Source: a virus
Reading direction: 5' to 3' (one strand)
DNA: 38,087 bases
IMG/VR virus record: IMGVR_UViG_3300050821_016308
Location: 1 to 38,087 of that record
In this document: positions 2,283-23,032 of the stretch, piece after piece
Layout: each line of letters starts with the position of its first letter
Numbering within the stretch: the stretch's first letter is position 1
Notes under the pieces: model-generated
Databases searched by the model: none
What the model was told of the DNA's origin: nothing
What the model saw: the letters and a program-made list of their open reading frames with translations, nothing else
Position numbers and translations under genes: made by a program

Positions 2283-2312
2283 ATAATAGGAAATTTTGGT
2301 ATATCAATGCAA
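2283..2312 (-). promoter_or_regulatory. TTGCATTGATAT-box promoter, fibre unit
   Basis: TTGCAT (2307-2312), an 18-bp spacer starting TGATATAC, TATTAT (2283-2288), 6 bases, ATG at 2276. Confidence 0.7.
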
Positions 2313-4733
2313 TCATTTACCTTGAGAAGCAAGATATTTACTTGCAATATCGGGATTATTTTGTAGAAACTGCTGAATTTCGGTATCCGAATAAATCTTA
2401 TTAGCCGCTTGATATGCGGGTGTTTGTGTGATAGGGTTTGGAGATGAGGAATTCGCTTGTTGGGGCTGGGATTGCCCTGCTACTCCTGTATCTTCTGTTT
2501 GCGGGACAGTTTGTTGCGTTTGCGGTGCTTCTTGCTGTTGATTTAATTGTGCTCCGTTTAACACGTTCTTAGAGACTTCTCCTAGGGTAAGGAATTTAGC
2601 AAGGTGAGCCATTGTAACGGCGATTAATTCCTTGCTTCCACCAAGTGCGCGTAAGAGGGGAATGGCAACATCGGGTGATGAAATTATCATATAAGCAGCT
2701 GCCGCTCCGATCGTTGCCATGTTTCCCGTAGCAATTCCTGTTAAAACGCCGCCAGCCTTTAAGAAGGCAGAGGGGTATGTACCAACTTTCGTACCTCCAA
2801 TCTTTTGAATATCCTCCATAGCTTTGAGTACGCTAAGCTTTTGAGTAATTCCTGGAGAAATTTCCTCGAGTTTCGCAAGTTGCAAATCTTTTCCTTTTCC
2901 AACAGCGTTTGCAATTTTATTAATTGCAGAATCGAGTAGGTTGCCATTTTTATCAATCAGACCTTTGCGAAGATTGTTTAGTTCGTCAATCTGAGAAGAG
3001 AATGTAGCATCTTTTTCGGCAAGTCCTGCAATCTGCGGTCTGTAGGTATCGTTAAATGCTCCACGGATACCCGCAGCGACACTTTCGACTGGCTTACTGA
3101 CGCTGAATTCACGTTCAAACTTTGCCGCCGTGGCTAAATCCTGTCTAAAGTTTAGAAACTCGTTTTGGGTAAGTTGGCCATCCTGAAATTCGGGCTTCCA
3201 TGTATCGTAAAGCTGCTGAAGAGCGCGAATATCTGACGCAGAACGTACCTTTGACGCCCCAGTGGCCGATATTTGGCCATCCGTTACATCCACACCAGCT
3301 TGCGAGCGTAATTGTTCATCAAGAAATGTTGGAGACACCCTTACAACGTTTGCTGCATTTTCACGAACTGCTCCATATCCTGCACCTGTCTCATCGAGAG
3401 TGGCAATTTTCTGTTGCAGTGCTGTTTCAACATCTTGAGCCACACTCATTCGACTAGAATTTGCTATCTGCTCAGGTGTAAATGCACTTGGATTTGCGAT
3501 AACCTGGTCAATGGTTTGTGGTTCAAGGCCAGTGAGTTGACTTCCTAGCTCCGATGAAATCAAACCCGTTGCATTCGCAAGCTTGCCAGCTCCTTTGATT
3601 ACTGGTGTTAGGGGATTTACCCCCATCGCTGCCCCTCCGAGTGTGTCTGATACGGCTGATGCTCCGCGCGTAAACGCGTTACCGATAGCTTGGTCGCCAG
3701 CCATTGTGCGTATACCTGTATTCAATGCGGCACTCGCTGAGTCTGCTGCGCTTGCTGTACTCGCTAGTTCTCCTGCTTTTCCTACGAGCTTTGCAGCAGC
3801 ACCTCCAACACCAAGGACAGCGGAAGCGTCTGCAAGCACGCCAATTGGATCTGTGTAGGCACTCTTAGAGAATGCATCTACGCTTCCATACCGCTGTTTA
3901 AAATAATTCGTGAGAGCGTCCCATTTAGCAGTATTGTCATTTGTCTGTCCTCCTAATTCCTGCAAACCCCCCGCTGCCATGCTTCCAATGTTTTGTACTG
4001 TTTGAATAGGGTGAATGAGGGCGTTTGCTGTGTTCCCCAGGAAGTTTGCACCTGACTGGATAGCATTTTCTCCAAAGCCAAGAAGACTAGGATTCTGTGT
4101 GTGCTGTGGGTCGGGTGCTTGATACGGCTGCGTTGGATTATTCTGTGGTGTTCCATTCACAATGTTAGTCAGAGCATTCTGAAACTCTGTCGCTCGTTGA
4201 GGATTTATGTGCACAAATTGACCTGGATTCTGTGGGTCCGGTCGTGCGCCATTCCACAGAGCATCAATCGAGTTGGGAGTAAGTCCTTGGTCTTTGTAGG
4301 CTTTGATTTGACTATAAGCCACATAGTTTTGATTCTCGGGAGTCATTGGAGCATCCGCACTTCCGAGAAATTGCTTCGCTGCATTTTGCCAATTAATAGG
4401 GGTTTGACCTGGCTCAACGGGGTCTTTGCCGTTATTCCATTGATACGCTCCCATTGATGAGCCGTTATCGCCTACAGCATTGTAATTTCCTTGTGATTCT
4501 ACATTGCGAATTGACTGCATTACTTTCACAACAGCGGAGTCAAGTGTGGAAGGGTCGAAAGGAGGCGGCTTGACCACGCTTTGTTGTGAACCTATAGGAG
4601 GAGTAATTTGCGGAGACTGTGGTTGAACGGGCTGCTGTGGTTGAGTCGTTTGATTTACAAACTGTTGTTGTACTGCATTGAACCCTGGTTTAGCGGAAGG
4701 TCCCATATCATATTCCAGCCCACGAATTGGCAT
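2313..4733 (-). CDS. Internal virion (ejection) protein with lytic transglycosylase-like domain
   Basis: 806 residues. After a Pro/Gln-rich N-terminus (about 1-60), residues 66-105 look like a goose/SLT-type transglycosylase core: VESQGNYNAVGDNGSSMGAYQW, with Glu79 as the candidate catalytic acid. The middle is Ala/Gly-rich and largely helical. Near residue 660 there is a hydrophobic stretch (ATGNMATIGAAAAYMII) that could insert in a membrane. The C-terminus is again Gln/Asn-rich. Short-tailed phages carry such large helical proteins inside the head, and one usually has a muralytic domain that opens the cell wall during DNA ejection. The start overlaps the upstream gene by 26 bases; an ATG at 4706, nine residues in, is an alternative. 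Confidence 0.7.
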   Translation of the reverse strand: MPIRGLEYDMGPSAKPGFNAVQQQFVNQTTQPQQPVQPQSPQITPPIGSQQSVVKPPPFDPSTLDSAVVKVMQSIRNVESQGNYNAVGDNGSSMGAYQWNNGKDPVEPGQTPINWQNAAKQFLGSADAPMTPENQNYVAYSQIKAYKDQGLTPNSIDALWNGARPDPQNPGQFVHINPQRATEFQNALTNIVNGTPQNNPTQPYQAPDPQHTQNPSLLGFGENAIQSGANFLGNTANALIHPIQTVQNIGSMAAGGLQELGGQTNDNTAKWDALTNYFKQRYGSVDAFSKSAYTDPIGVLADASAVLGVGGAAAKLVGKAGELASTASAADSASAALNTGIRTMAGDQAIGNAFTRGASAVSDTLGGAAMGVNPLTPVIKGAGKLANATGLISSELGSQLTGLEPQTIDQVIANPSAFTPEQIANSSRMSVAQDVETALQQKIATLDETGAGYGAVRENAANVVRVSPTFLDEQLRSQAGVDVTDGQISATGASKVRSASDIRALQQLYDTWKPEFQDGQLTQNEFLNFRQDLATAAKFEREFSVSKPVESVAAGIRGAFNDTYRPQIAGLAEKDATFSSQIDELNNLRKGLIDKNGNLLDSAINKIANAVGKGKDLQLAKLEEISPGITQKLSVLKAMEDIQKIGGTKVGTYPSAFLKAGGVLTGIATGNMATIGAAAAYMIISSPDVAIPLLRALGGSKELIAVTMAHLAKFLTLGEVSKNVLNGAQLNQQQEAPQTQQTVPQTEDTGVAGQSQPQQANSSSPNPITQTPAYQAANKIYSDTEIQQFLQNNPDIASKYLASQGK

Positions 4734-6330
4734 TTACTCCACCGTTAGTTCCACCCGGAGTTACAGGAGGCGCAAATTGACCGCCCAATTGAGAAGTAAT
4801 AGAAGAAATTTGTTGTCCTGTTGCATTCAGAATATTTGCACCATTTACATTTAATTGCTGTTCAACCTGAGCCATATCAGATGGTTTTAAATTATCAGGA
4901 ATCAATGTAATTGCATCTTGTCCCGCTTGTGTTGGTGTTTCTCCACGAGAACCTAATAAGTTACCGTAATTCGTTCTCAATGATGCAAGGGATGCTTTAA
5001 ATCCTGCAATCGCGCCGGGAGCAAGCAATTTTGCTCCTACAGCATTTTGGATTTGGTTTATTATTGGTACATCACTTTGGTTAATATTCCCTGCAGACAT
5101 ATATCCTTTAAGATTTGTAAAATCATCATTCGCTGCTTTGAATGCAGGTGCTAATTGATTATATGTTTGCATTGCTTGATTGAGTGAAGAAGATTGTGCA
5201 GTTCCGAGAGAGGCAGCTGCACCACTCACTAGCTGTATAGTGCCATCAGCATTTTGCTGAAGAGCATTAGAATTAAGTTTATTGTAAATTCCTATTCCTC
5301 CTCCTGGGGTGCTATATGTTCCTTGGAATCCTGCTTGATAAGCAGGGGATTGTGCTGCTTTTTGTCGCGCTTCTTCGATTGAATCAGTTGGAAGAATTCC
5401 AGCTCCTGGATAGGCATTTCCAAGAGTATTAACTGAATTAATTGAATTAATAGCTGCAAGAGCTGCAGGGGACTGCAATTGTGTTTGCGCAGCAGCAATC
5501 TGTCCTGTCCGTGCTAGCTGTGCTGTATTCAATGCCTGATTCGCTCCAAGTTGTTGAATAGCATTTACTCCTTGTGCAAGAGTATTCTGTGATTGCGCAA
5601 GTGTATTTTGTGCTTGTGCTTTTGCTGTTGCCCCTTGAGCATAATTTAATGTATCACCTGGAAGATTATTGCCAGTATAAAAATTAGAATTAAGAGCAGC
5701 AGCATTTACTCCATATTGTGCCTGATTAAGATTTAATCCTGCTCCTTGCTGTTGTGCAGCATATTGCTGTTGTAGAGCTTGTAAATATTGCGGATTATAT
5801 CCCTGTGCTTGAGCGACACCATTCACGATATCAGTTAATCCTTGGTATTTACTATTAACATCATTAATTCCCGCGGTACTACCGAGAGCATTTGAACCGA
5901 TATTCGAGGTGTCAATTTTAAACTGAGGAGCATTTGAATACCCTTGTACAATGCCATTTCCGTTGGTAGTTACTTGACCACCATTTGGGGTAGGAGTTTG
6001 AGATATCGTATATTGATTATAATCTTTCGGATTTGAAACAGCATTATTTTGCGGTTGTGCTGTTGGAATTGCTGCGTTAGTTGATTGTTTTGCATTAATA
6101 GGAGGAAATGAAAGACCTCCTGTTTGACTAGGACGATAAGCGCCAAAATCTATTCCAGAAGATTGTTGATTCGGTATAGCTCCGAGCGTATTAAGATTTC
6201 TTGGAATATTAGCATTAAATGTACCTGCAATATTTGCCACCGTACTTCCTGCTGCTTGTCCTAATCCTTGCTGAAGAGGAGATTGTTGAAATGTATTCTG
6301 CTGCTGCGGTTGTTGTGTAAGAGGAAACAT
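4708..6330 (-). CDS. Gln/Asn/Ala-rich internal virion protein
   Basis: 540 residues, very rich in Gln, Asn and Ala, with near-repeats in the centre such as AQNTLAQSQNTLAQ and LQQQYAAQQQGAG. No recognisable domain. Size, composition, helix-prone repeats and position next to the transglycosylase-bearing protein fit the paired internal or ejection proteins of short-tailed phages. It is the first gene of a unit with its own TTGCATTGATAT box (6356-6368). The assignment rests on context and composition, not on a family match. Confidence 0.55.
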   Translation of the reverse strand: MFPLTQQPQQQNTFQQSPLQQGLGQAAGSTVANIAGTFNANIPRNLNTLGAIPNQQSSGIDFGAYRPSQTGGLSFPPINAKQSTNAAIPTAQPQNNAVSNPKDYNQYTISQTPTPNGGQVTTNGNGIVQGYSNAPQFKIDTSNIGSNALGSTAGINDVNSKYQGLTDIVNGVAQAQGYNPQYLQALQQQYAAQQQGAGLNLNQAQYGVNAAALNSNFYTGNNLPGDTLNYAQGATAKAQAQNTLAQSQNTLAQGVNAIQQLGANQALNTAQLARTGQIAAAQTQLQSPAALAAINSINSVNTLGNAYPGAGILPTDSIEEARQKAAQSPAYQAGFQGTYSTPGGGIGIYNKLNSNALQQNADGTIQLVSGAAASLGTAQSSSLNQAMQTYNQLAPAFKAANDDFTNLKGYMSAGNINQSDVPIINQIQNAVGAKLLAPGAIAGFKASLASLRTNYGNLLGSRGETPTQAGQDAITLIPDNLKPSDMAQVEQQLNVNGANILNATGQQISSITSQLGGQFAPPVTPGGTNGGVNANSWAGI

Positions 6331-6338
6331 AATATTAC

Positions 6339-6368
6339 ATCATGCATTGAGGGCGTATATCAATGCAA
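6339..6368 (-). promoter_or_regulatory. TTGCATTGATAT-box promoter, internal virion protein unit
   Basis: TTGCAT (6363-6368), an 18-bp spacer starting TGATATAC, a weak -10 CATGAT (6339-6344), 8 bases, ATG at 6330. Lies just after the stop of the small virion protein. Confidence 0.6.
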
Positions 6369-6369
6369 T

Positions 6370-6723
6370 TTAGGCAGTTGCGGTTACATAGTGCCAAACA
6401 TTTGCATTACCGTCGTACCAATAGAGGCGCAGTGTCGCCCCATTTACATAAATCTTAATTTGCTGATAAGGACTAGCTGGTATACCAGTAGGAACAGCTG
6501 ATACTGTTTCAAAAAGACCGATAATATCGGTATTAAAATTGATTCTTTTCTCCATAAGATTATTAATTTTATTGAGTGCATCTTGAATCTGATTACTAAG
6601 ACTATTCAAATCAGGAGCGGAACTATAAACTTGTCCCGCAATTGGTTGATACGATTGTAATTGGGGATGTGGAAAATCTGGTTGTTCTATTTTTGGCTGT
6701 TTATCTTTATTCTGCGACATCAT
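6370..6723 (-). CDS. Small virion protein, coiled coil plus beta tail
   Basis: 117 residues. A Pro/Gln-rich N-terminus is followed by a predicted coiled coil (LSNQIQDALNKINNLMEKRI) and a C-terminal beta segment (TLRLYWYDGNANVWHYVTA) of a type seen at the ends of tail or neck proteins. The start overlaps the upstream beta-propeller-like protein by 17 bases; there are two consecutive ATG codons and either could serve. Probably structural, from position and style. Confidence 0.55.
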   Translation of the reverse strand: MMSQNKDKQPKIEQPDFPHPQLQSYQPIAGQVYSSAPDLNSLSNQIQDALNKINNLMEKRINFNTDIIGLFETVSAVPTGIPASPYQQIKIYVNGATLRLYWYDGNANVWHYVTATA

Positions 6724-8089
6724 AGTAAATAATTATTCTGATAACACCGAAACCTTGTCCAGAAAACGTAAGGCGTGGTTGGACTGCTTGACATTTAAAA
6801 CTTCCATAATCAAAATCAAAATCATTTTGCGGAGAACCTGTGGAAGTAGCACCTAAAGAAGGAACTATAAACCCAATTTGAGTAGGAAATAAACTATTTT
6901 CATCAAAAAAAGTGAATCCTCCTATTCCCCCTCCCCCTGTAGTTGTGATATTCGTTGTTATTACACGAACACGACGAATAAATATCGGACGAGGAAAATA
7001 AATATTATTAAAATAAAGTATTCCAAGTCCTGCTGCAGTACTTCCAAAATCAAAAGTTTCAAATTGTGAACTATGAGCTGCAACACCTAATTTATTCGAA
7101 CCAGCAGGAAAAATTATATCAATATTATTTGAATTGATTGAATTATATCCTGTATAAAAAAACGCTTTTTTTCCTGCAATTACTTCTCCATAAGAAAGTA
7201 CATCATCGCCATCTACAATATGGAGAATATTACGTGTATTTGAGAAATGATGTTTATAAGGTAAATCTGCTTTTAAAAAGGTGCCATTTGTAGCTAATTT
7301 TCGTAAATATGTAATACCATTTCCATTCCATGCGCCAATTGTGCCTGAACCTGTACCAACAAATACTTGACCACCAATATTATAAAAAGCTGTAATTAAA
7401 TCATCGACAAGAATTTTGCGTGATGGTTTTGATGAAATACCATCATAAAGATATATGATACCTTTTTGCTGAATTGAATCTGTCGGATTATAGGAATTTT
7501 CTACTGAAACCATCATAAGTCCTGTTAGGGGGTCTATACCAAGAGCTACTATTTTTTCATTACCATTCAATACCCATGAAGCATCAGCATTGAATGTACT
7601 TTCATCGCTTTGCAAATTAGCAAGATGTTTTCCATCGCCAATCCACAAAGAAGCCTGATATACCAATAAAGGATGTAAAGCATTTGCATCTTGAAGTGTT
7701 TGGAATTCCTCATTTACTGTCCAAGAACTAGTATTTATTTGAAGTAAATCATCTCCATTGCATGTAGCATAATTATGACTATAAAATGGTTCTATATCAG
7801 ATTCAGGGAATGAATAAGTATTTGAAAGACCTGTTACTTGTTTTGTCCATCCACTTCCACTCCATGAATAAATATTTCCCGCATCATCAATGGCAATACG
7901 TGTATTTGGTAGTACAACCTGTGAATCATTTGAAGAGGCAACAAGATTACCTGCAAGATTAGTCGAGGCCACAGTTGGGGCAGCAAGAGAATAAATAACT
8001 CCTGGTGTTACGAATGGATTTAAACCCATTGATGAAATACCAAGTGCTCCATCAGTCGCATAATCAGATGATGACATTCCAGAAGTCAA
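6707..8089 (-). CDS. Beta-propeller-like tail protein
   Basis: 460 residues, beta-rich, with spaced Trp/Tyr/Asp-Gly motifs suggesting blades (NIYSWSGSGWTKQ, SLWIGDGKHLANL, IIYLYDGISSK, GTIGAWNGNGITYL) and a C-terminal beta-sandwich with a Gly-rich turn (TTTGGGGIGGFTF). It lies among tail genes, so a neck or tail role is likely. The first usable start is a TTG at 8089 with GGAG 8 bases upstream. However, the frame stays open a further 69 bases to about 8158 and reads like protein (GKYQLQLGADQ) with no ATG or GTG. That suggests the original 5' end was displaced when the HNH gene arrived upstream. Confidence 0.65.
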   Translation of the reverse strand: MTSGMSSSDYATDGALGISSMGLNPFVTPGVIYSLAAPTVASTNLAGNLVASSNDSQVVLPNTRIAIDDAGNIYSWSGSGWTKQVTGLSNTYSFPESDIEPFYSHNYATCNGDDLLQINTSSWTVNEEFQTLQDANALHPLLVYQASLWIGDGKHLANLQSDESTFNADASWVLNGNEKIVALGIDPLTGLMMVSVENSYNPTDSIQQKGIIYLYDGISSKPSRKILVDDLITAFYNIGGQVFVGTGSGTIGAWNGNGITYLRKLATNGTFLKADLPYKHHFSNTRNILHIVDGDDVLSYGEVIAGKKAFFYTGYNSINSNNIDIIFPAGSNKLGVAAHSSQFETFDFGSTAAGLGILYFNNIYFPRPIFIRRVRVITTNITTTGGGGIGGFTFFDENSLFPTQIGFIVPSLGATSTGSPQNDFDFDYGSFKCQAVQPRLTFSGQGFGVIRIIIYYDVAE

Positions 8090-8124
8090 TTGGTCAGCTC
8101 CAAGCTGTAATTGATATTTTCCGA

Positions 8125-8355
8125 TTATAGACTCCTTGCGACTGACCTTCGATTTCCTTTATCATATACACCATGACATTTAGGACACAATCGAATCCAA
8201 TCGGATTTAATTCTTTGATAATTTCGACTTTTATTTGCCCAATGCATGCGTCTTCCGTGTCCAAGAATACCACATTGAGAACAATTTGATGGCTTACCCA
8301 AAGGAATCTGACCTTTCATAAACATTTTTCCTTTTCGGTGTCCTTTTCCAATCAT
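8125..8355 (-). CDS. Small free-standing HNH-type endonuclease
   Basis: 76 residues. Cys25-x2-Cys28 and Cys57-x2-Cys60-His61 form a zinc pair around His38-Trp-Ala-Asn41 and SDWIRLC, the compact HNH arrangement found in phage homing endonucleases. The basic N-terminus would contact DNA. The ATG overlaps the upstream stop (ATGA), so it is translationally coupled into the tail operon. Its insertion appears to have altered the start of the downstream tail gene. Function as a mobile endonuclease is inferred; an HNH nicking activity in packaging is less likely because it lies far from TerL. Confidence 0.7.
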   Translation of the reverse strand: MIGKGHRKGKMFMKGQIPLGKPSNCSQCGILGHGRRMHWANKSRNYQRIKSDWIRLCPKCHGVYDKGNRRSVARSL

Positions 8356-9026
8356 ATCATTTTAAGCAGAAACGCTGGATTAGCTATTGCTGATACACCA
8401 AATGGTGCGATTGAAAAAAATGAAGAAGCAAATCGTGTCGATACAGCTGTTTCTACCATAGTGAATGAACCATTCTGTGCTGCATTTGTGTCTAACAAAG
8501 TAAATCCTTCACTTCCCGCCACTACAACCGAAGTATTCGCACCAGCACTCACAGTTGCTGCGTTACTATTAGTAGAAATCATTATACCCCATGCATTAGC
8601 TGCTACTGGCACAATAGTTTCCGTTTCTGAAGTCACTGAACCCGTATCAAGAACAGGTGAATTTGTTCCCACTGCATCGGGTGGATTTGATTGTTTAACT
8701 CCTGTGTAGGAAGCAACAATCGCTTTTCGTATCGTTGTACCGCTTGAAGTTGCAGCAAAAGTATGTGTCCCTGATGCCGGAGAAAGTAAATAAAATACAT
8801 CTATAGCATTTCCAACTCCCGCTATACTTTTATTATATTGACCAAGTGATGTCATGGTAACACCATTATATGTAGCACCTGTCATTGCGGTTGTAGCATC
8901 TGTTCCATTCATCATGAAAAATGCCAGTAATAATCCATTAGTATTATTATTCACCGTATAAGAATAAGAAATTGAGTTAGCTGACAATATTGCTGAGGCA
9001 TTTGAATTATCACGCGCAATTGCCAT
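8352..9026 (-). CDS. Beta-sandwich virion protein, related to the secreted protein at 36915-37682
   Basis: 224 residues, Ser/Thr/Ala/Asn-rich, no signal peptide. The order of motifs ATYNGVTMTSLGQY, VFYLLSPASGTHTFAATS, KAIVASYTGVKQSNPPDAV and ASSFFSIAPFG matches the order NTYTALTQQ, QLFYKQNPTVSSTMTFTPG, DVYVEGFSGSASSPFDV and AVIASFKPA in the protein at 36915. They therefore probably share a jelly-roll-like fold. It sits among tail genes and is probably a fibre or appendage component. The stop overlaps the HNH start. Confidence 0.6.
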   Translation of the reverse strand: MAIARDNSNASAILSANSISYSYTVNNNTNGLLLAFFMMNGTDATTAMTGATYNGVTMTSLGQYNKSIAGVGNAIDVFYLLSPASGTHTFAATSSGTTIRKAIVASYTGVKQSNPPDAVGTNSPVLDTGSVTSETETIVPVAANAWGIMISTNSNAATVSAGANTSVVVAGSEGFTLLDTNAAQNGSFTMVETAVSTRFASSFFSIAPFGVSAIANPAFLLKMI

Positions 9027-9028
9027 AA

Positions 9029-9775
9029 TTAAATATTTTGCCCTATTACAAATCCGTCATATGTACTGCTCCCCGTAATCTCAAATCCAACAGTATCAGC
9101 CTTTGATGCTGTTGTTGTAAGTATCGGCGCACTTCCACCTGCCCATTTTATCGTAGTAAACCAAGTAACCGTCCTGCTTCCCGTGCCATCTTGGAGTATG
9201 CGAATTATAAAGCATTGTCCCGCAGTCCCATTTGAAAGTGCAATCGTGATATTTCCCGCAGGCATTGTTATGTGATGAATATTACCCTTTGATAAATCGA
9301 GGGTTGCGGTTCCGCCTCCAGTTGGATTATATGTTTGTATGCTCGCGTTTGTACCAGAATTAATATTTATAGATGAAGTTGACGGAGCAGCTAACGTACT
9401 CACTGTTTGAGTTCCCGTAAACGTGTTTGCCGCATCGGTACGAGCAACTGTTATCGATGCATCAGGTAACGTAATCGTCCTGGCAGCGCTTGGCCCTGAA
9501 AATGTGAGTACTTGTGATGCAATAGGAAGAGTAGTATTTGAATCGGGGACAGTGATTGTGCGTGTGGTTGCGGTAGTGATTCCTGATGCACTGAAAGCCA
9601 CTTGTTTCGATGTATCAGAACTGTCCTTTATGCGAAATAGCGACGCCAGAATATTAAAGAAATTCATCATCGAGGACTGTTTTGTTGTCGTATTTGCAGT
9701 ATCAACTATCGGCACTAAATCAGCAGCGAGCGGTGTTGTGTAACTGGTGAGAGCGGAGATTTTTTGGTCTGCCAT
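9029..9775 (-). CDS. Tail fibre or appendage protein
   Basis: 248 residues. The N-terminus, MADQKISALT then DLVPIVDTANTTTKQ, is a recurrent opening of phage fibre and appendage proteins. The centre is repeat-like (TRTITVPDS, ARTITLPDASITV), and the C-terminal domain (GNIHHITMPAGNITIALSNG, then IKWAGGSAP) resembles the distal domain of other phage surface proteins. It lies 2 bases from the next gene and in the same operon as the connector. Confidence 0.65.
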   Translation of the reverse strand: MADQKISALTSYTTPLAADLVPIVDTANTTTKQSSMMNFFNILASLFRIKDSSDTSKQVAFSASGITTATTRTITVPDSNTTLPIASQVLTFSGPSAARTITLPDASITVARTDAANTFTGTQTVSTLAAPSTSSININSGTNASIQTYNPTGGGTATLDLSKGNIHHITMPAGNITIALSNGTAGQCFIIRILQDGTGSRTVTWFTTIKWAGGSAPILTTTASKADTVGFEITGSSTYDGFVIGQNI

Positions 9776-9970: not shown

Positions 9971-10744
9971 TTATCTTCCATAGGAATAACCTCCGACGCC
10001 TGAAGCACCGTTGTCACCGTAGTTGTCGTAGCCTGGACGAAGGAAAAGTACTTCATCGAGTTGTTTTCGACCATAGGCAGTGCGAAGCCGTGTCTCCCAA
10101 TCTGCTAAATCCTGTTTGATGTTCGCGAGTTGAGGCAAATTATTAGCATTGGCAAATTCGTATGCCGCTCCGTAGGACATCATGTGATGGAATACTGGAT
10201 CGAAGCCAGGGATAACAGTGGAATCATTCGGGTCAGTCGTATAGTCACTCGAGGAGAATGGCGTAACGTTTCTGAACCATTCCACTCGCATCAGCGCACC
10301 GGCGGAAACATCTGAAGCTGCCGCAAGGGGATAGAGAAAGATGGAATTAAACTTCACATCATATCGCGGCGCTTGTTTAATCATGTTCGCATCTTCGTTT
10401 GTAGCATTCCCAAATCCCCATCCTGCTACACCATCATCAAATGGAGTAGCACGATAGTAATTTATTCCATCATATGTTACATCAACACGCTTAATTTTTA
10501 GTACTGTTTCAGATACAGGCATCGAATAATCTCTTTGCCCTGCAACGAGTGGAGTTGTAACTATCGGATAGTTAGTATTCCGCATATCATCAAAATCAGA
10601 ATCATCCTGTGATTCCATAATGGCCGAAACGATTTTTTGATACCAAATATTGATATCAATTAGAATATTTGCGGTTGTATAAGTATAAATATTCGTATGC
10701 GTAAGTGAACGAGCCTTGGTTGCGACATCTCCGAGTGTTGCCAT
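9971..10744 (-). CDS. Head-tail connector / adaptor-like protein
   Basis: 257 residues. The helical N-terminus, a central DVTYDGINYYRATPFDD region and the helical C-terminus (FHHMMSYGAAYEFANANNLPQLANIKQDLADWETRLRTAYGRK) resemble adaptor proteins that dock under the portal in short-tailed phages. It is the first tail gene after the glycan cassette. It has its own box promoter (10798-10827), and its leader contains a perfect 8-bp hairpin. The family assignment is tentative. Confidence 0.55.
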   Translation of the reverse strand: MATLGDVATKARSLTHTNIYTYTTANILIDINIWYQKIVSAIMESQDDSDFDDMRNTNYPIVTTPLVAGQRDYSMPVSETVLKIKRVDVTYDGINYYRATPFDDGVAGWGFGNATNEDANMIKQAPRYDVKFNSIFLYPLAAASDVSAGALMRVEWFRNVTPFSSSDYTTDPNDSTVIPGFDPVFHHMMSYGAAYEFANANNLPQLANIKQDLADWETRLRTAYGRKQLDEVLFLRPGYDNYGDNGASGVGGYSYGR

Positions 10745-10759
10745 AATTTTGAGCTAGTA

Positions 10760-10782
10760 GGGCTTGTTTCCTCGACAAGCCC
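10760..10782 (-). promoter_or_regulatory. Leader hairpin before the connector gene
   Basis: GGGCTTGT and ACAAGCCC pair perfectly around a 7-base loop that reads CGAGGAA on the minus strand. It lies between the -10 box (10798-10803) and the ATG at 10744. No T-run follows, so it is more likely a 5' stabiliser or translation control than a terminator. Confidence 0.6.
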
Positions 10783-10797
10783 CGACCGCTTTCTATG

Positions 10798-10827
10798 ACT
10801 ATACTTTTCGAAGCAATATCAATGCAA
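10798..10827 (-). promoter_or_regulatory. TTGCATTGATAT-box promoter of the connector/tail unit
   Basis: TTGCAT (10822-10827), an 18-bp spacer starting TGATAT, and TATAGT (10798-10803). The box contains the stop codon of the upstream glycosyltransferase. One of six copies with the same spacing. Confidence 0.7.
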
Positions 10828-11475
10828 CGCAGGAAGTGTCATGCCACCGCGAAACATGGCCATTCGTTTCGTATTAAGACTACCATCAAATGATTCTCTA
10901 TAAGGATGCGGTAAAAAAGCATCATGATTATATGCAAGCACTGGATTATCAAATAGACATTTAAATTCATATCCAGCCAACTGAGCACGACATCCAACAT
11001 TCACATTATCCGATGACCAAATGCCATCTAATGTTTCATCAAATCCCCCTATTGCTTTAAGAGCTTCGAGAGGAGCAGCACCATTATCTATTTCCCATGT
11101 ATTCCATTCACAGGAACGAATATTCTTAGTCTCATCATTACGATATGCTCGCCAGTCCCATTGAGCAGGAAGTGAAAAATTAAGATTATTTACCTTTCCT
11201 ACAGGAGCAGTGAGAAAAGTATTCGGATATTCTTGATAACAATCCCACCATCTTTGGAGATAATCAGGGCGGATAAGAATATAATCTTGGAGAGACACAA
11301 TCAGTTCACCTTGTGCTCTTTTAAGCATTCGATTATATGCGGCATTTAAATCATGTTTTGTTAAACCGATTTCCACGAGCCACTCGAAATCTATGAATGT
11401 TTGTTTAAGCAAACCAGTGCGAACAATATCAAGTCCTAGCGGTCGTATTGATGGTGTAATGACTGAAATTTTCAT
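10819..11475 (-). CDS. GT-A fold glycosyltransferase (family 2-like)
   Basis: 218 residues. MKISVITPSIRP is a canonical first beta strand of GT2 enzymes. LNAAYNRMLKRAQGELIVSLQDYI is the helix and metal-site region with the DxD reduced to QDY, and AIGGFDE near residue 142 is the acceptor-side motif seen in GT2/GT27-type enzymes. It probably transfers a sugar from a nucleotide donor; substrate unknown. Last gene of the coupled glycan cassette (ATGA overlap upstream); its final residues LH plus stop lie inside a promoter box. Confidence 0.75.
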   Translation of the reverse strand: MKISVITPSIRPLGLDIVRTGLLKQTFIDFEWLVEIGLTKHDLNAAYNRMLKRAQGELIVSLQDYILIRPDYLQRWWDCYQEYPNTFLTAPVGKVNNLNFSLPAQWDWRAYRNDETKNIRSCEWNTWEIDNGAAPLEALKAIGGFDETLDGIWSSDNVNVGCRAQLAGYEFKCLFDNPVLAYNHDAFLPHPYRESFDGSLNTKRMAMFRGGMTLPALH

Positions 11476-15647: not shown

Positions 15648-15649
15648 AT

Positions 15650-16034: not shown

Positions 16035-16053
16035 CTGTGTATATCCTTTTGTT

Positions 16054-16977: not shown

Positions 16978-16989
16978 GATGTGAAGCGT

Positions 16990-17550
16990 TTATCTTTCGT
17001 TATTTGCAGCATTGATAGCTGAAGCAAATACAAGTGCCGTGTCTTCATTAGTTGAGCCACGAGCATTTGTAACTTGAATCGCTTGTTCAGTCACTGATTT
17101 AGCTTGAGATAAACGTGAGTTAGAAGAAACAATTGATTTATTGTTTGCTACTTCATCGGCCACTTTTGCTTTCTCAAAATACGTCTTGAATGCATCGCTA
17201 CCCACAACCTCGGCAGGATTCGTCCCCATCGCATTAATGATGGCTTCGTGTCCTTTAAATTCTGGGTTGTTAGCATAGAAGACTTGTGTCTCGAGTGTTT
17301 GAACCTTAGACGCTAGGTTGGGGTCAACGGCGGGCGCAGGACTGACTGCAGCTATCTTTTTACCGACGTAACTCTGAGTGTCCTTGAGGGCCTTCAGAGC
17401 TGTTTCCTTATCCTTAAAGTCTTTTCCGAGTGTTTGGTTCAACTCAGCAAGTGAAAGGGCATTAGAAACCGCCGCGCCACCTTCTGCTGATGTCACGTGG
17501 GCATCATCAGGGACGGTCTTGTCGGTAAGGTTTTCTTGATTTTCGTTCAT
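16990..17550 (-). CDS. Capsid assembly scaffolding protein
   Basis: 186 residues, acidic, helical, with Ala/Asn/Lys-rich composition and a disordered N-terminus (NENQENLTDKTVPDDAHV). It lies between the portal group and the capsid gene, where phage scaffolds are normally coded. No protease domain is present. Assignment is from position, composition and length. Confidence 0.65.
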   Translation of the reverse strand: MNENQENLTDKTVPDDAHVTSAEGGAAVSNALSLAELNQTLGKDFKDKETALKALKDTQSYVGKKIAAVSPAPAVDPNLASKVQTLETQVFYANNPEFKGHEAIINAMGTNPAEVVGSDAFKTYFEKAKVADEVANNKSIVSSNSRLSQAKSVTEQAIQVTNARGSTNEDTALVFASAINAANNER

Positions 17551-17596
17551 AACAATTTCAATGGATTAATAACGGGGTTCGACCTTAATTAATTCC

Positions 17597-17614
17597 CCGC
17601 GTGAGGAAACGCGG
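17597..17614 (-). promoter_or_regulatory. Perfect hairpin upstream of the scaffold gene
   Basis: CCGCGT and ACGCGG pair around a 6-base loop in the 72-base gap before the scaffold start. No T-run follows. A second weaker pairing (GGGG with CCCC) spans the rest of the gap. Possibly an RNA-processing or stabilising element ahead of the highly expressed scaffold and capsid genes. Confidence 0.5.
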
Positions 17615-17622
17615 AATATCAA

Positions 17623-17928
17623 TTATCCCCTGTCAATAAATTCTTCCGGTTTTTCCTGAAGTTTCTGCGCATTTGATTCTTGTTGTTCTACGAATCCAAA
17701 AACATCATTTTTTAACCATTCCCATATATGCTCTACCGCCATCTTTCGTGCTGCTAATTGCGTTGAAAGTGTTGTTGGGTCAGTTAAATCAAGATTATTA
17801 ATATTTTGCAAATCTAAAATCCTTTGGGACAGCTTGGAATAAATTGATTGCCATCCCTGTGAATCAAGAAGTGATTTTACATGGTCTGCTTCTGTAAGGA
17901 TTTTTGCAGTTTCTACATCAGGATTCAT
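17623..17928 (-). CDS. Hypothetical helical protein, head region
   Basis: 101 residues from the ATG at 17928, which overlaps the upstream stop as ATGA and has GGAG 6 bases before it; a TTG start at 17940 is possible but less likely. All-helical (VKSLLDSQGWQSIYSKLSQRILDLQNIN, AARKMAVEHIWEWLKNDVFGF). Its place between portal and scaffold suggests a head or minor structural role; unrecognised. Confidence 0.6.
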   Translation of the reverse strand: MNPDVETAKILTEADHVKSLLDSQGWQSIYSKLSQRILDLQNINNLDLTDPTTLSTQLAARKMAVEHIWEWLKNDVFGFVEQQESNAQKLQEKPEEFIDRG

Positions 17929-18311
17929 ATGCAGCTCCAAGCAAGAAATGCTGGTGAGGAAGTAGCAATTGCGTGAATGGCACCTCGATAAAGAGATAAA
18001 TCAACATTGGTCATTTGCCATGTTCCGAGACTTGGAAGTGCGATACCATTCGACATTACCGCTGGCGCATCTCCCATAAGAGCGATAAAAATCGTGCTAG
18101 AGCCAATATTTGTGAAACGACAATATTGGCGAGTTGTTGATGATTGTATCCATGTGTCCGATGTACCAACAAGTGTCGTTGAGGAAATAGTATAAGTATT
18201 CTGTCCAGGACTAAGAACATCTCCTGTAAGATGAGTCATAGGAGTTTTTATATAAAAACCTATTCCTACAAACATAGCAACTATCACAAAAGTAATGAGA
18301 TATTTATTCAT
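17925..18311 (-). CDS. Membrane-anchored or exported small beta protein
   Basis: 128 residues. Residues 3-21 (KYLITFVIVAMFVGIGFYI) are one hydrophobic segment, a signal anchor or uncleaved signal. The rest is Ser/Thr-rich beta sequence (TRQYCRFTNIGSSTIFIALMG) like decoration or spike domains. It follows the portal and starts its own unit: the -10 box lies 6 bases before the ATG, so the mRNA is probably leaderless. Function unknown. Confidence 0.65.
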   Translation of the reverse strand: MNKYLITFVIVAMFVGIGFYIKTPMTHLTGDVLSPGQNTYTISSTTLVGTSDTWIQSSTTRQYCRFTNIGSSTIFIALMGDAPAVMSNGIALPSLGTWQMTNVDLSLYRGAIHAIATSSPAFLAWSCI

Positions 18312-18317
18312 ATAATG

Positions 18318-18347
18318 AGTTTAAATAATAAAGGTATATCAATGCAA
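18318..18347 (-). promoter_or_regulatory. TTGCATTGATAT-box promoter, head unit
   Basis: TTGCAT (18342-18347), an 18-bp spacer starting TGATATAC, TAAACT (18318-18323), then 6 bases to the ATG at 18311. The portal stop codon lies inside the box. Confidence 0.7.
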
Positions 18348-20264
18348 AGTCATAGCGTTTTGAGCGATATTCTGCATTTGCTGTCCTTGATTCTGCGGTG
18401 CTCCTTGTGGTGTCCCTGCAGGTATTGGTGCTCCTTGCGGCATTGGTGGAGGAGGATTCTTAAAAGGTGACAATCCCATTAAATCAACAGTTTGTTTTAT
18501 AATCTGGTCTGAATATTGTGGCGCTACTTTCATCATTTCAAGCAAATTCTGAATAGTAATGGTCACATCCATTTCTTCATTTGTGACATACATCTTTGTT
18601 TCAAGTTCATCGGCAATAATATCACGCACTAATTTCACAAACATGTCGCCTTTACGCATTTTTTCTTTTACATGCTCAATTTCTTGCTGAATTTCTTGGG
18701 GAGAAGGCAAATATCCTTCTTCGAATGATTTATCAAGCGCTTCCATTGCTTTAAAGTGAGCTACGCGTTCAACTAATTCACCGAATGTATCTTCATCAGA
18801 TGTTATACGTACAATTTCTCCCGCAGTGAGTTCTTTTGCGATAATTTTGAGTGCATGTCTATCCATCCAACGCTCTAGAAATCCTCCAAGTGCATCTTTA
18901 ACAAGTGCAAATCCACTTTTTACGCTTGCCGTCTGCAATGATGCTTCCGTAGCTGAGGTAGATGCGGGAAGATTCTCTCCTGTTGCTACTTGAAAAGCAT
19001 TTGTCAACCGTTCGGAAATATCATTTATTACTTCTTCGTCTTTGTATGATGATTCTCCCACTTCTTGTACTACCATTTGCTCCAAATCTTCGAGATTATT
19101 AAGAACAACTACTCCGTTCGAAGGCAAGCGAGCAAGCATTTGTGGAGTAATTCCAGCTCCTTTTTTCATTTTAAAGAGTCCTAACTGAGAAACACGTGAG
19201 CGGTTTATACGAACATTGAAAACAATATTTGCGTATATTTGGAGAGTAAGAAGCTTTTCAGCAATACCGCGACCATACCAACGATTCGGGACACGAGTAT
19301 ACCAACATTCTTCATAAGGTTTGAGTGAGTTACCTTCTTTATCGACTTTTGTATTGCGTTCAATGACATGCGCACGCTCTTTTCCTGGTGAATCAATACC
19401 AGACACTACGATATGGCCCGCAACTTCTACATTGTTATCGTTCCAATTGCCTGTAATAAGCGAAAGAGGAATCTGCCCCCACATTTCATATACATCAATC
19501 AATTTTACATTTGAATTAACTTGTGAAGAACGATTCATCCAATATGGATCAGTTCGCGGGAGTCCTTCAATCACATTCTGGTCAATTCCTTCGGTATTTA
19601 TCCATCCATTCATTCCTATGATTTCTTCAGGAAACATTAAAGTACGTTCAGTAAAACGATATGCTTCTTGAATAGATGGTGTTGTGGGGTCTATATAAAT
19701 ATTTAACAAATCAACTTGCTTAATAATCAATTTCCCTCTTTCTTCATAGGTTTTCCAAACCGCAGTGCCATCAATTGCCATCATGCGCTCAAAATCATCG
19801 AGTTTTTGACCAAAATATATCGTCGAAAGCTTATTTTTCACTGCTGCACGTGTTACATCCGTTATTTCTGCTCCCTCAGAAGTTCTCGCTCTAAAGTTAA
19901 TATCCTTCTGATCGAGGTCGATATTTTTCATCACTGCTTCTACATTGATTTCCGTGAGCGGATACCATGTCTTTTCAAGATTTGTGTATTGATCAATAGG
20001 CACATCAAAGATGCCATAGTAGTTCTTGCGAAAGATACGAATGAGCTGGCGCATTTTAAAGGACACACGGTCTGTGACGAATGCTGTAGCAACTTCCCAT
20101 CGTTGCTTTTCCCCTCTTACAATGCCAATTGCTCGGGCTTGGATATCAGTATTGCCATACATTCCAATAGGGTCTGATGAATCTGCTGTTTGCAGCAAAT
20201 GATTCTCACGTTCTTTATCGAGAATTGAGAGTCTAGGTTCGCGCGATTTCTTTTTTCGAGCCAT
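18339..20264 (-). CDS. Portal protein
   Basis: 641 residues, the size of a short-tailed-phage head-tail connector. A helical N-terminal wing (RVSFKMRQLIRIFRKNYYGIFDVP), DGTAVWKTYEERGKLIIKQVDLLNIYIDPTTPSIQEA, and a helical stem/clip region (VNDISERLTNAFQVATGEN-like at about 410-430) match the general portal pattern. The C-terminus is Gln/Pro-rich. Position after TerL and before scaffold and capsid fits. Starts with an AAGGTGA-type Shine-Dalgarno or, given the promoter, an 8-base leader. Confidence 0.85.
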   Translation of the reverse strand: MARKKKSREPRLSILDKERENHLLQTADSSDPIGMYGNTDIQARAIGIVRGEKQRWEVATAFVTDRVSFKMRQLIRIFRKNYYGIFDVPIDQYTNLEKTWYPLTEINVEAVMKNIDLDQKDINFRARTSEGAEITDVTRAAVKNKLSTIYFGQKLDDFERMMAIDGTAVWKTYEERGKLIIKQVDLLNIYIDPTTPSIQEAYRFTERTLMFPEEIIGMNGWINTEGIDQNVIEGLPRTDPYWMNRSSQVNSNVKLIDVYEMWGQIPLSLITGNWNDNNVEVAGHIVVSGIDSPGKERAHVIERNTKVDKEGNSLKPYEECWYTRVPNRWYGRGIAEKLLTLQIYANIVFNVRINRSRVSQLGLFKMKKGAGITPQMLARLPSNGVVVLNNLEDLEQMVVQEVGESSYKDEEVINDISERLTNAFQVATGENLPASTSATEASLQTASVKSGFALVKDALGGFLERWMDRHALKIIAKELTAGEIVRITSDEDTFGELVERVAHFKAMEALDKSFEEGYLPSPQEIQQEIEHVKEKMRKGDMFVKLVRDIIADELETKMYVTNEEMDVTITIQNLLEMMKVAPQYSDQIIKQTVDLMGLSPFKNPPPPMPQGAPIPAGTPQGAPQNQGQQMQNIAQNAMTLH

Positions 20265-20272
20265 TTACTTTC

Positions 20273-20302
20273 ACCTTAAATCATGGCTGTGTATCAATGC
20301 AA
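20273..20302 (-). promoter_or_regulatory. TTGCATTGATA-box promoter, portal unit
   Basis: TTGCAT (20297-20302), an 18-bp spacer (TGATACAC...), a weak -10 TAAGGT (20273-20278), then 8 bases to the portal ATG. One mismatch in the extended box. Confidence 0.55.
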
Positions 20303-20319
20303 TCAATCATAATTAGTTG

Positions 20320-21615
20320 TCAATCATAAGTTGTGCGATAAAGTTCACCTTCATATTCCCTATTCGCAAATCGTGGATTATGTAAATACATATCAATAGG
20401 AATCGGACTCGTAATACCATGAACAGCAAGAGCAAGCGAAAAGACTCTATCATCATGCATAGTCTCTGGCACTCCCACTTTTATCTTTCCGAGAGGAGAA
20501 AGTGAATACTGAAATGATTCAAGTTCAGTAATAAGTCCCTCATCATCTGGTATTTGAATCTTATCTTGTTCTAAAAGCATCGCTAGATTATTCAAAAGAT
20601 TCATTCTAGTCGCTTCGGTGAATTTAATAGCATCTTCGTCTGTTATATTAAGCCCACGGCTCTTTAAATCCTCTACAACAGGGTCGCCAACACCTGTGGC
20701 ATCTATTTTAACTCTTGCTTTGTAGCGGAGTGCGGCCGCCTCAATTCTCGCTTTCTGAAGGTTCCAGTCAATCTGGTTAAAACGGTCTTGAACATACGCA
20801 CGCATCGTATTCATGTTGAACGGCGTAATAACCGTGAAGTCTTGATACTTTGCTAAGTCCACGCCCATTTGAAAGTCTCCATGCTCTGTCTGCTGCTCCT
20901 GCATATCGTAGGTATTCTCATGGATACGACGGAAGAATTGACCAGCGCCGTCTATGAACGAACAGTAGTATTCCTGTTGGATGATTGCCTCAGGATTGTT
21001 GCGCTTCTCTTCTGCGAGCGCTTCATCAGTAAGCACGTGCGTTTCATTGATTGTAAGAAGCTCTGTAAACCACTTTTCGTTCTCTTTGGCCTTCTGTAGT
21101 AGCTCCCATGCATGATTCTTTCCTCGAGGTGTGAAGTTAAAGATTGCCCATCCGCCATTCACAGCGAGAATAGGGCCGACGAACTTCCATGCTTCTGGTG
21201 AAGTTATTGAATATTCTGAAAATACAACTCCAATAGGATTTGCGCCAACACCGCTTTCTTTAAAAGTGTCCGCACCAATAAGTTGGATGACTGAGCCATT
21301 AATCAGTTCTACTTTGAGGTCTGAGTTGTTCTTGCTCTTGATGACTTGCTTCGGGATGTGGTCGAGCATTGCAAACCCGTCGTTGTCTATGTTGTTCCAA
21401 ATAACCTTCTTAGCTTGTGAATACTCTGGGAGAAAGTAGTAATATGTTCCTACTCTCTCAAACGCTCTTCGTACCATGTAATTAAAGCAGACCTTATCTT
21501 TACCCGCTCGACGATTCCATACAATGACGGCGCGTTTACATCCATTATCAAGCGCTCTTAGAAGAGGCAGCTGATAATCTCTCGGTTCAAACTTGTGAGG
21601 TATCTCTATCTCCAT
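20320..21615 (-). CDS. terL: Terminase large subunit
   Basis: 431 residues. ATPase: Walker A VWNRRAGKD (32-40), Walker B VVFSEYS with catalytic Glu134, coupling motif FTPRGKNH (161-168). RNase H-like nuclease: Asp253 in GVDLAKYQD, Asp305 in KIDATGVGD, and the HDDR pair at 388-389. It cuts and pumps concatemeric DNA into proheads together with the small subunit and portal. It overlaps the upstream small terminase-like gene by 29 bases. Confidence 0.97.
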   Translation of the reverse strand: MEIEIPHKFEPRDYQLPLLRALDNGCKRAVIVWNRRAGKDKVCFNYMVRRAFERVGTYYYFLPEYSQAKKVIWNNIDNDGFAMLDHIPKQVIKSKNNSDLKVELINGSVIQLIGADTFKESGVGANPIGVVFSEYSITSPEAWKFVGPILAVNGGWAIFNFTPRGKNHAWELLQKAKENEKWFTELLTINETHVLTDEALAEEKRNNPEAIIQQEYYCSFIDGAGQFFRRIHENTYDMQEQQTEHGDFQMGVDLAKYQDFTVITPFNMNTMRAYVQDRFNQIDWNLQKARIEAAALRYKARVKIDATGVGDPVVEDLKSRGLNITDEDAIKFTEATRMNLLNNLAMLLEQDKIQIPDDEGLITELESFQYSLSPLGKIKVGVPETMHDDRVFSLALAVHGITSPIPIDMYLHNPRFANREYEGELYRTTYD

Positions 21616-21859
21616 AGTGGATTGTCTTTATTGTGAGTGAAGCATCCATCTTAGAATCTATCTGTGATTCGGGGTTTCCTTCTGCCATTCTCCATACCAT
21701 ATCCTTTTGGATTTGCGCCAAATATTCCCGCTTATCTTTCTCAGACATCTCTTTAAGATAATTACGAGCGAACGCTTTTAAAGAATCTTTTGGCCGCCCT
21801 CCTGGATTTCCACTTTGTCCTGGTTTAAATTGATATGGTTTCAAATGAGGCAGTTCCAT
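21587..21859 (-). CDS. DUF5681-like small terminase candidate
   Basis: 90 residues. FKPGQSGNPGGRPKDSLKAF (12-31) is the DUF5681 signature found in short proteins directly upstream of phage large terminases. The remainder is helical and basic. Overlap with terL and the usual gene order make a small terminase or terminase accessory role likely. It has its own promoter and an upstream terminator. Confidence 0.75.
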   Translation of the reverse strand: MELPHLKPYQFKPGQSGNPGGRPKDSLKAFARNYLKEMSEKDKREYLAQIQKDMVWRMAEGNPESQIDSKMDASLTIKTIHYGDRDTSQV

Positions 21860-21885
21860 ACTGTTTTTATACTGTTCTCAATAAG

Positions 21886-21915
21886 ATTATACCATATAAA
21901 ACAAAAGAGCCGCAA
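21886..21915 (-). promoter_or_regulatory. Promoter of the terminase genes
   Basis: Extended -10 TGGTATAAT (TATAAT at 21886-21891) with a TTGCGG -35-like hexamer 18 bp upstream that lies inside the terminator stem. About 20 bases of leader precede the ATG at 21859. Confidence 0.65.
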
Positions 21916-21926
21916 TTAAGCGACTC
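21898..21926 (-). terminator. Rho-independent terminator upstream of the terminase genes
   Basis: On the minus strand GAGTCGC and GCGGCTC pair (one T-G) around TTAATT, followed by TTTTGTTTT. It ends the unit 22996-21960 and insulates terminase expression. Confidence 0.85.
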
Positions 21927-21959
21927 CTTTGCTGCTTTAAAAATCTTCTCGCACTTTAT

Positions 21960-22343
21960 CTATTCCTGTGAAGCAGGACGCCCACGAGGTTGCTCTCTAT
22001 CTGCTTTTAATTGTCCATCTTCTCGTCTTTGTTCACCATATTCGCCACCAAATTCATTGAGAACAATGCCTGCGTTTGTAATAGGAATATTTCTTCCCAT
22101 TGCGACGCGACGCAATTCATCGAATCGGCCGATTTCTCTATCTTTAAGCTTATTTTGTTCTGATTGCAGTGAACCAGGAAAGCGTTCAAATTCTTTCTCT
22201 GCCGCTGGTCGGGCAATGCCCATGCCATCTGAAACATTATCGTTACTCAATGATTTCTCTGCAGGGCCTTGATAAAGATTATTATTAGTGCCTCTTTTTG
22301 TCTCACTATCACTTTCTGGTAATACATTTGAATTATACGCCAT
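21960..22343 (-). CDS. Hypothetical hydrophilic protein
   Basis: 127 residues, highly charged, probably disordered, with IGRFDELRRVAMGRNIPITNAGIVLNEFGGEYGEQRRE as its only ordered-looking stretch. No family recognised. Ends just before the terminator at 21898-21926. Context suggests a minor head or packaging accessory. Confidence 0.55.
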   Translation of the reverse strand: MAYNSNVLPESDSETKRGTNNNLYQGPAEKSLSNDNVSDGMGIARPAAEKEFERFPGSLQSEQNKLKDREIGRFDELRRVAMGRNIPITNAGIVLNEFGGEYGEQRREDGQLKADREQPRGRPASQE

Positions 22344-22345
22344 AA

Positions 22346-22645
22346 TTATTGATATTTAGCTTTGTAATTTCCTTCATTCCAATTCATCTCACTATTAGCG
22401 TAACCGAGATTATTTATCGGTTCTCGACCTTCTTTCACGCTCGAAGTTGGAATGAACATTTTTAATCGTTTGGTCATTTCTACAGCATCAGATACCATTG
22501 TTGAATTTGAAGCAGGAGCATTGAAATATGCTTCTCCTCTTGAAGAATCAACAACATTCCATCCATAGGGATTTGCAAGATTATTTGGATTCAAATCAGG
22601 GTCAATCATTGTTGGCACTGCTTGAGAAAGTTTTGGTGTGTTCAT
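22346..22645 (-). CDS. Hypothetical protein
   Basis: 99 residues, Asn/Pro-rich start (MIDPDLNPNNLANPYGWNV) and a basic middle. No domain recognised. It lies 2 bases upstream of the next gene in the same small unit. Confidence 0.5.
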   Translation of the reverse strand: MNTPKLSQAVPTMIDPDLNPNNLANPYGWNVVDSSRGEAYFNAPASNSTMVSDAVEMTKRLKMFIPTSSVKEGREPINNLGYANSEMNWNEGNYKAKYQ

Positions 22646-22660
22646 AATTATTGTAATATA

Positions 22661-22780
22661 TTAATTATGATAGGTACCGAATCCGTCTGTTTGAACAACT
22701 CCTGTTTGTACTGGCTCACTAAGAACTGTTTCAGGGCTACTAGTTTCAGGAACAGAATCAATTTTCGCTTCTTCATCCAT
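22661..22780 (-). CDS. Very small hypothetical protein (39 aa)
   Basis: 39 residues, acidic then Ser/Thr/Val/Gln-rich (MDEEAKIDSVPETSSPETVL...). It fits tightly between its neighbours in the same direction. Too short to classify; support is from spacing and composition. Confidence 0.45.
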   Translation of the reverse strand: MDEEAKIDSVPETSSPETVLSEPVQTGVVQTDGFGTYHN

Positions 22781-22786
22781 ATTATT

Positions 22787-22996
22787 CTATTTACGTCGTC
22801 CTAATGAATCTTCTCGACCTTTCTTACTCCAAGAAGACATTTTCTTTTCTCCATATTTTTCCCTACCAACTTTTGCTGCAATAGCCGCTCCTATTTCCTT
22901 TGCTTTTTTCTCTGATTTGCCTTTCTTTTCATATTCCTTTTCTACGCTTCCTTCTAGCTTTTTAAATCGTGCGCCACTGCCTAATTTAGGTTTCAT
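22787..22996 (-). CDS. Small basic protein, Lys/Arg-rich
   Basis: 69 residues, about one third Lys or Arg, with KLGSGARFKKLE at the start and AAIAAKVGREKYGEKKMSSW in the middle, a pattern common in small phage proteins of unknown function. Probably binds nucleic acid or coats DNA. First gene of a box-promoter unit; the ATG lies 6 bases after the -10, so the mRNA is probably leaderless. Confidence 0.65.
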   Translation of the reverse strand: MKPKLGSGARFKKLEGSVEKEYEKKGKSEKKAKEIGAAIAAKVGREKYGEKKMSSWSKKGREDSLGRRK

Positions 22997-23002
22997 ATTG
23001 TG

Positions 23003-23032
23003 AGTATAAAATCTTTGATGATATCAATGCAA
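23003..23032 (-). promoter_or_regulatory. TTGCATTGATAT-box promoter, pre-terminase unit
   Basis: TTGCAT (23027-23032), an 18-bp spacer starting TGATAT, TATACT (23003-23008), 6 bases, ATG. One of the best matches. The stop codon of the HTH/zinc gene lies in the box. Confidence 0.75.

Follow-up and report, generated by a model that had tools for sequence, protein, structure and literature searches.

The stretch of DNA analysed here (the window) is the virus record IMGVR_UViG_3300050821_016308, 38,087 bases long and possibly incomplete, in which a 12-base box recurs at gene junctions of the minus strand. Its terminase, SU10-type capsid, portal and adaptor proteins identify it as a tailed phage whose head module is SU10-like. 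Among annotated phages, the capsid nearest to that of the window is less than 30% identical, and a profile search of genome contigs with the capsid alignment gave no matches. The best match of the large glycosyltransferase in the genome collection is a 4.4-kb contig in a metagenome-assembled genome of Candidatus Taylorbacteria (52%), from which we infer that the host is probably an ultra-small member of the Patescibacteria, mis-binning of that contig being possible. The nearest relative is G001/L006 (capsid 93%, terminase 78%; G and L numbers are our handles for related phage records).

Five exact copies of TTGCATTGATAT and one copy with a single change, TTGCATTGATAC, occur in the window, all at gene junctions (Table 1). 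A sequence-only reading of this DNA had proposed the same six sites, and the sites stand, with the correction that its start coordinates were one base too low. At up to one mismatch the 12-mer has 6 matches in the window, whereas 100 shuffled sequences averaged 0.63 and never exceeded 3; at up to three mismatches the count is at chance level, and meaning is therefore restricted to the near-exact copies. That reading had also described the genes that end inside a box (TTG CAT TGA, Leu-His-stop) and the TAnnnT-like hexamers located 18 bp past TTGCAT, and both are as it claimed. It had not pointed out that at five of the six sites an ATG lies 36-38 nt from the first base of the box, that is, 6-8 nt past the hexamer (the exception is the adaptor gene, with its ATG 83 nt from the box start), nor that relatives keep the sites without keeping the sequence.

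Table 1. Boxes, hexamers and associated features on the window (positions in the 38,087-base record)
Feature	Position	Strand	Context
Box 1, TTGCATTGATAT	23021..23032	-	ends the helix-turn-helix/zinc-ribbon gene (Leu-His-stop); precedes 69-aa gene 22787-22996
-10 hexamer of box 1, TATACT	23003..23008	-	ATG 6 nt downstream
Box 2, TTGCATTGATAC	20291..20302	-	precedes portal gene 18339-20264 (portal by Pfam/PHROG similarity)
-10 hexamer of box 2, TAAGGT	20273..20278	-	ATG 8 nt downstream
Box 3, TTGCATTGATAT	18336..18347	-	ends portal gene (Leu-His-stop); precedes gene 17925-18311
-10 hexamer of box 3, TAAACT	18318..18323	-	ATG 6 nt downstream
Box 4, TTGCATTGATAT	10816..10827	-	ends gene 10819-11475 (Leu-His-stop); precedes adaptor gene 9971-10744 (Pfam SU10_adaptor)
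-10 hexamer of box 4, TATAGT	10798..10803	-	followed by a leader of ~47 nt
Hairpin in adaptor leader, GGGGCTTGT-CGAGGAA-ACAAGCCCT	10759..10783	-	GAGG in loop; same in several relatives with other stem sequences
Box 5, TTGCATTGATAT	6357..6368	-	precedes gene 4708-6330
-10-like hexamer of box 5, CATGAT	6339..6344	-	ATG 8 nt downstream
Box 6, TTGCATTGATAT	2301..2312	-	precedes gene 1422-2276
-10 hexamer of box 6, TATTAT	2283..2288	-	ATG 6 nt downstream
Helix-turn-helix/zinc-ribbon protein, 108 aa, candidate activator	23024..23350	-	predicted helices 28-35 and 39-46 form the helix-turn-helix; invariant Cys/His 73, 76, 83, 86, 89, 94
TATAAT	23357..23362	-	6 nt before the ATG of the helix-turn-helix/zinc-ribbon gene; no box there

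Whether related phages keep the motif at the same junctions, a check suggested by the sequence-only reading, has a divided answer: the sites are kept but the exact 12-mer is not. Each of the group's 11 contigs, the window counted, has a box at the portal junction, and nearly every phage has a sequence of its own, as exemplified by TTGCGTTGTCYTA, TTGCACTGAAATAG, TTGTTTTGATA and TTGTATTGACACAA. G001/L006 lacks the exact window box and carries TTGCGTTGTCYTA at the orthologous junctions, and TAAACT, TACTCT and TACTCT are located 18 bp past TTGCGT in G001; the boxes of other relatives are TTGCACTGAAATAG (G007), TTGCATTGYGWG (G008/G009), TTGTTTTGAYA (G010), TTGTATTGACACAA (G015), TTGYATTGGTACA (G021/L077), TTGCTTTGACTA (G022/L074), TTGCTTTGAAATAG (L019) and TTGCATRGTCACA (L020). 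The absence of the exact box from close relatives was an apparent refutation, dropped once the orthologous junctions were read. A search of viral contigs for the exact 12-mer with a -10 and an ATG gave five matches, each in single copy, which were taken as chance. Two more distant phages, G019 and G020, show the same layout at several late genes with TTGATAACCTAG and TTGATAACCTCC and spacers of 18 and 19 bp. In several copies of the G019 box (oriented positions 8871, 10154, 15161, 26774, 27518 and 30139) an AACCTAG box and a CTAGGTT -10 region make up an inverted repeat, possibly a dyad site.

When the 50 boxes with an 18-bp spacer are aligned, all 50 have T(-7) and 47 have A(-11), and the A(-11)/T(-7) pair is found 47 times at the 18-bp offset as against 1 and 0 times at the adjacent offsets, in an alignment that is partly circular in that some of its sites were located with the aid of the -10. 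For that reason a clean test was run, with the portal-junction 11-mer of each genome as sole query against that genome. It returned 42 further matches on the late strand, of which 38 have A(-11) and T(-7) at the fixed offset, as is characteristic of sigma-70-type promoters, and 31 have a start codon at +34 to +40; on the opposite strands there were 5 matches, one of them with the A/T pattern. The bases separating box from -10 are unconserved in the 50 aligned boxes, as are, within each phage, the 30 bases 5' of the box (in each of seven genomes tested) and the 12 bases 3' of it (in most genomes tested). Finding the portal box in every contig of the group, with private sequences and a fixed spacing to the -10, supports the earlier proposal of a phage-specific regulon in which the TGATAT half of the box is a second protein contact. 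Judged by these sequence patterns, the boxes very likely serve as the -35-region element in one class of late promoters, most of them leaderless. The genes that they would serve are mostly structural, and by sequence the label 'late' is not separable from 'middle'.

Start codons lie 35-40 nt from the box start at 41 of 57 sites, most commonly at 36 or 37 nt. The ATG thus sits where sigma-70 transcription would start, and most of the mRNAs should therefore be leaderless or nearly so. Relatives that lack the gene for the candidate reader discussed below (G011, G012, G013, L041 and L096) have TATAAT about 6 nt 5' of late ATGs, and leaderless late promoters seem to be general in this phage group. 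The adaptor genes of the window, G001 and G021 have their ATG 83-88 nt away, and their box-to-(-10) distance is still 18. The hairpin in the adaptor leader, with its GAGG loop and differing stems, is also found in G001, G010, G021, G015, L078, L079 and L083 and is possibly an RNA element controlling the adaptor gene.

The candidate reader is the helix-turn-helix (HTH)/zinc-ribbon protein encoded just upstream of box 1 (hereafter HTH/Zn protein), in whose predicted model the HTH has a predicted local distance difference test score (pLDDT) near 90 and the zinc ribbon that comes after it is modelled with less certainty (mean pLDDT 81.9). Homologues occur in G001, G007, G008, G010, G015, G021 and G022; the gene is found in every box phage of the window's group whose contig spans its place (presence could not be judged in G009 and the short L019 and L020), and it usually directly precedes a late box. 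Among 91 contigs scanned, clusters of at least three copies of the same box on the late strand are confined to G000, G001, G007, G009, G010, G015 and L077, all of which have the gene save G009, which begins downstream of the gene's place and is near-identical in their overlap to G008, a carrier of the gene. None of the eight genes of the first HTH/Zn class, which has a common T-x-x-R-Y recognition helix, has a box upstream. A second HTH class (G014, L078 and L080-L083) has a T-x-x-L-W helix (TxxLWL type), and five of its six members carry T-N-ACTC at the portal junction; that helix class and box class change together is suggestive, the pattern having been noticed after the fact. Phages of this second class, plus some others, carry a conserved element some 22 nt long, AAGGCGGTTTnnAACCTTACC or similar, 5' of the adaptor or portal gene (L078, L080, L083, L084, L085, G014 and L092), and the gene after the HTH gene in L043, L078 and L083 is an open reading frame with a chaperonin-like motif (TLGPSGRNA or similar). 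Pfam and PHROGs do not assign the HTH/Zn protein to Sigma70_r4, their weak matches being to resolvase-type HTH_7 and zinc-binding domains. A fold search with the model found no PDB match at E <0.001 (the best was a DeoR-type HTH), a PDB sequence search gave weak L32/C1 zinc matches and nothing else, the phage collection gave no match, and a scan with the HTH/Zn alignment recovered two already-known relatives and no others.

Co-occurrence with the boxes and position make it probable that the HTH/Zn protein reads them, as the sequence-only reading had supposed of this nearest candidate. Several observations weigh on the other side. The same-geometry boxes of G019 and G020 (TTGATAACCT) come without a detectable HTH/Zn homologue, so that such a box can be served by another protein, or by none. 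Distances between boxes and between HTH domains are uncorrelated over eight phages (rho 0.15, P 0.22; for the recognition helix -0.04, P 0.59), in a comparison where distances are near saturation. G022 has a box together with a degenerate zinc site in its HTH/Zn protein. The regular expression used to scan the 91 contigs was built from box phages, so other box types escape it, and clustering of k-mers by strand, an unbiased approach whose noise prevented a ranking of genomes, pointed to L135/G019.

On balance, we think it likely that the boxes belong to activator-dependent sigma-70-type late promoters of T4-MotA-like geometry, read by the HTH/Zn protein together with host RNA polymerase. The box, 12-14 bp long and located at about -36 to -25, would form the upstream half of such a promoter; it consists of a family-wide TTG at -35 and a phage-specific extension, and about 12 unconserved bp separate it from a weak sigma-70-type -10 in which chiefly A(-11) and T(-7) are kept, with the start codon in most cases 6-8 nt further on, which should give mRNAs that are mostly leaderless or nearly so. 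The HTH/Zn gene, upstream of the first late box and itself boxless, would have its product made first; this protein would then dock on the box and keep RNA polymerase in place by way of sigma region 4, the beta flap or alpha, which would compensate for the weak -10. In the portal promoters of box phages the -10 has on average 3.7 of 6 matches to TATAAT; of the relatives scored that lack the HTH/Zn gene, 11 of 29 have a perfect TATAAT before the portal ATG, at the distance where the box phages have their -10, versus 0 of 10 scored box phages (counts that are not independent, some relatives being close to each other), as is expected if box and reader compensate for a weak -10. A broader and tentative idea, for which we would claim less than even chances, is that the HTH/Zn family constitutes a set of exchangeable -35-region readers for host RNA polymerase in Patescibacteria phages, in which each phage has a private code for the same late genes and the promoter is fused to the start codon, yielding mostly leaderless late mRNAs.

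Other explanations of the boxes themselves fare poorly. The usual box-ATG distance of 36-37 nt could reflect, instead of a promoter, a signal at the translation or mRNA level similar to start-associated sequences; the -10 spacing is kept, however, where the adaptor ATG is distant, so that box and hexamer make up one unit independent of the ATG and distinct from translation signals, and the -10 signature is a DNA-level one, which leaves this explanation barely tenable. Ordinary host sigma-70 promoters whose -35 and spacer are alike through recent duplication within each phage would account for the near-identical boxes inside one phage, and sigma-70 ordinarily contacts both TTG at -35 and A(-11)/T(-7). 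Yet the flanks described above are unconserved within a phage, which is not the outcome expected of recent duplication, the copies are identical within a phage and different in relatives at orthologous sites, and many phages without the HTH/Zn gene have a plain TATAAT instead; we regard duplication as highly improbable. A T7-like single-subunit polymerase promoter is argued against by the split of conservation into box and -10, and the corresponding profile (PF00940) had no match in 14 records, nor in the control genomes, so that this search speaks neither for nor against it.

The reader and its mode of action are less constrained. The sequence-only reading had left a choice between an activator and an altered sigma factor: Sigma70_r2 was not detected in 11 records (the control was positive in 10 genomes, and the records may be incomplete), and an activator therefore fits better than a whole alternative sigma factor. 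The box could still be a promoter element read by another phage protein, such as a region-4-like sigma fragment, with the HTH/Zn gene a mere neighbour inherited with the module. In addition to the boxes of G019 and G020 and the uncorrelated distances already mentioned, two small proteins speak for this. One, of 111 aa, is encoded in G001 upstream of the HTH/Zn gene (L006:5379-5714, plus strand) and combines a clear Sigma70_r4 domain with a Cys/His cluster; no counterpart of it was found in the window. The other, in G020, has Cys pairs and an HTH that weakly resembles Sigma70_r4; it is encoded upstream of the portal box TTGATAACCTCC (L158:7848-8210, plus strand) and is a candidate reader of the box of that phage. 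Against such a reader, a Sigma70_r4 search of the window and of its group's other long box-phage records came up empty, and the HTH/Zn gene is found wherever its place is covered, usually directly before a late box; we consider this explanation rather unlikely. In lambda the Q gene lies just before the late region, a position that the HTH/Zn gene, directly before the late region, resembles. A Q-like HTH/Zn protein would bind between -35 and -10 and make RNA polymerase terminator-resistant, with no activation of initiation, and the phage Q site does lie between the -35 and -10 of the late promoter (PMC6606751). Given leaderless starts, however, the -10-like pause element that Q requires would fall inside codons, and none is seen in the columns to about +2; moreover, the box overlaps the -35 and occurs at several promoters per genome rather than one, and Q-like loading is to us very unlikely.

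Outside the late promoters, the capsid gene of G007 (IMGVR_UViG_3300050821_002746) is split by an insert of about 218 bp without read-through, which is intron-like (L018, about 10871-11088); Rfam, run on the window and on L018 with this insert, gave no match at the gathering threshold.

Knowledge of how genes are controlled in phages of the Patescibacteria, hosts that are mostly uncultured, seems scant, and the recent papers on such phages that we examined do not mention promoters. If activator-dependent late promoters of the kind proposed here exist, they would allow late promoters to be mapped at the sequence level throughout a phage family, with start sites predicted to the base and late mRNAs predicted to be leaderless, and would provide natural pairs of a reader protein and a private DNA code with which to dissect how activators read the -35 region.

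Several known systems share part of this arrangement. The start-associated sequences of cluster K mycobacteriophages resemble the boxes in that both are short, non-palindromic repeats found at the gene starts of a single phage group and oriented mostly one way; they lie 3-7 bp from the start codon, contain the AGGAG of the ribosome-binding site and are associated mostly with non-structural genes (PMC3203893), whereas at typical sites about 24 bp separate the end of the 12-mer from the ATG, and the 12-mer lacks AGGAG and is coupled to a -10. Lambdoid Q, an antiterminator that acts at late promoters and depends on a -10-like pause element downstream, within the initial transcribed region (PMC6606751), has in common with our proposal an HTH protein that reads promoter DNA between -35 and -10 to serve late genes, and differs in that the boxes overlap the -35 and are found at several promoters per genome. 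Phage sigma region-4 proteins are also small HTH proteins potentially acting at the -35 element, unlike which the HTH/Zn protein is not placed in Sigma70_r4 by Pfam or PHROGs. In T4 middle promoters, a case of sigma appropriation, the MotA box spans -35 to -26 with 13-bp spacing and is centred at -30, 12 ± 1 bp before a sigma-70 -10 that has to be excellent (PMC2988021); the equivalent here is a phage-specific 12-mer over the -35 position, at about -36 to -25, followed by 12 bp and then by A(-11)/T(-7) in 47 of the 50 aligned boxes. The T4 reader is likewise a small phage DNA-binding protein, working with host RNA polymerase, as proposed for the HTH/Zn protein. MotA, however, consists of a helical domain at the N-terminus and a double-wing domain at the C-terminus and acts with AsiA, whereas the candidate here combines an HTH with a zinc ribbon and was not matched to MotA by searches of Pfam, PHROGs or PDB sequences (other window genes were not all searched); the boxes also differ in their kept TTG, their weak -10 and start codons mostly at or near +1. 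Because of the candidate protein and the lack of a strong -10 they are not members of the T4 class, but they would work like T4 middle promoters.

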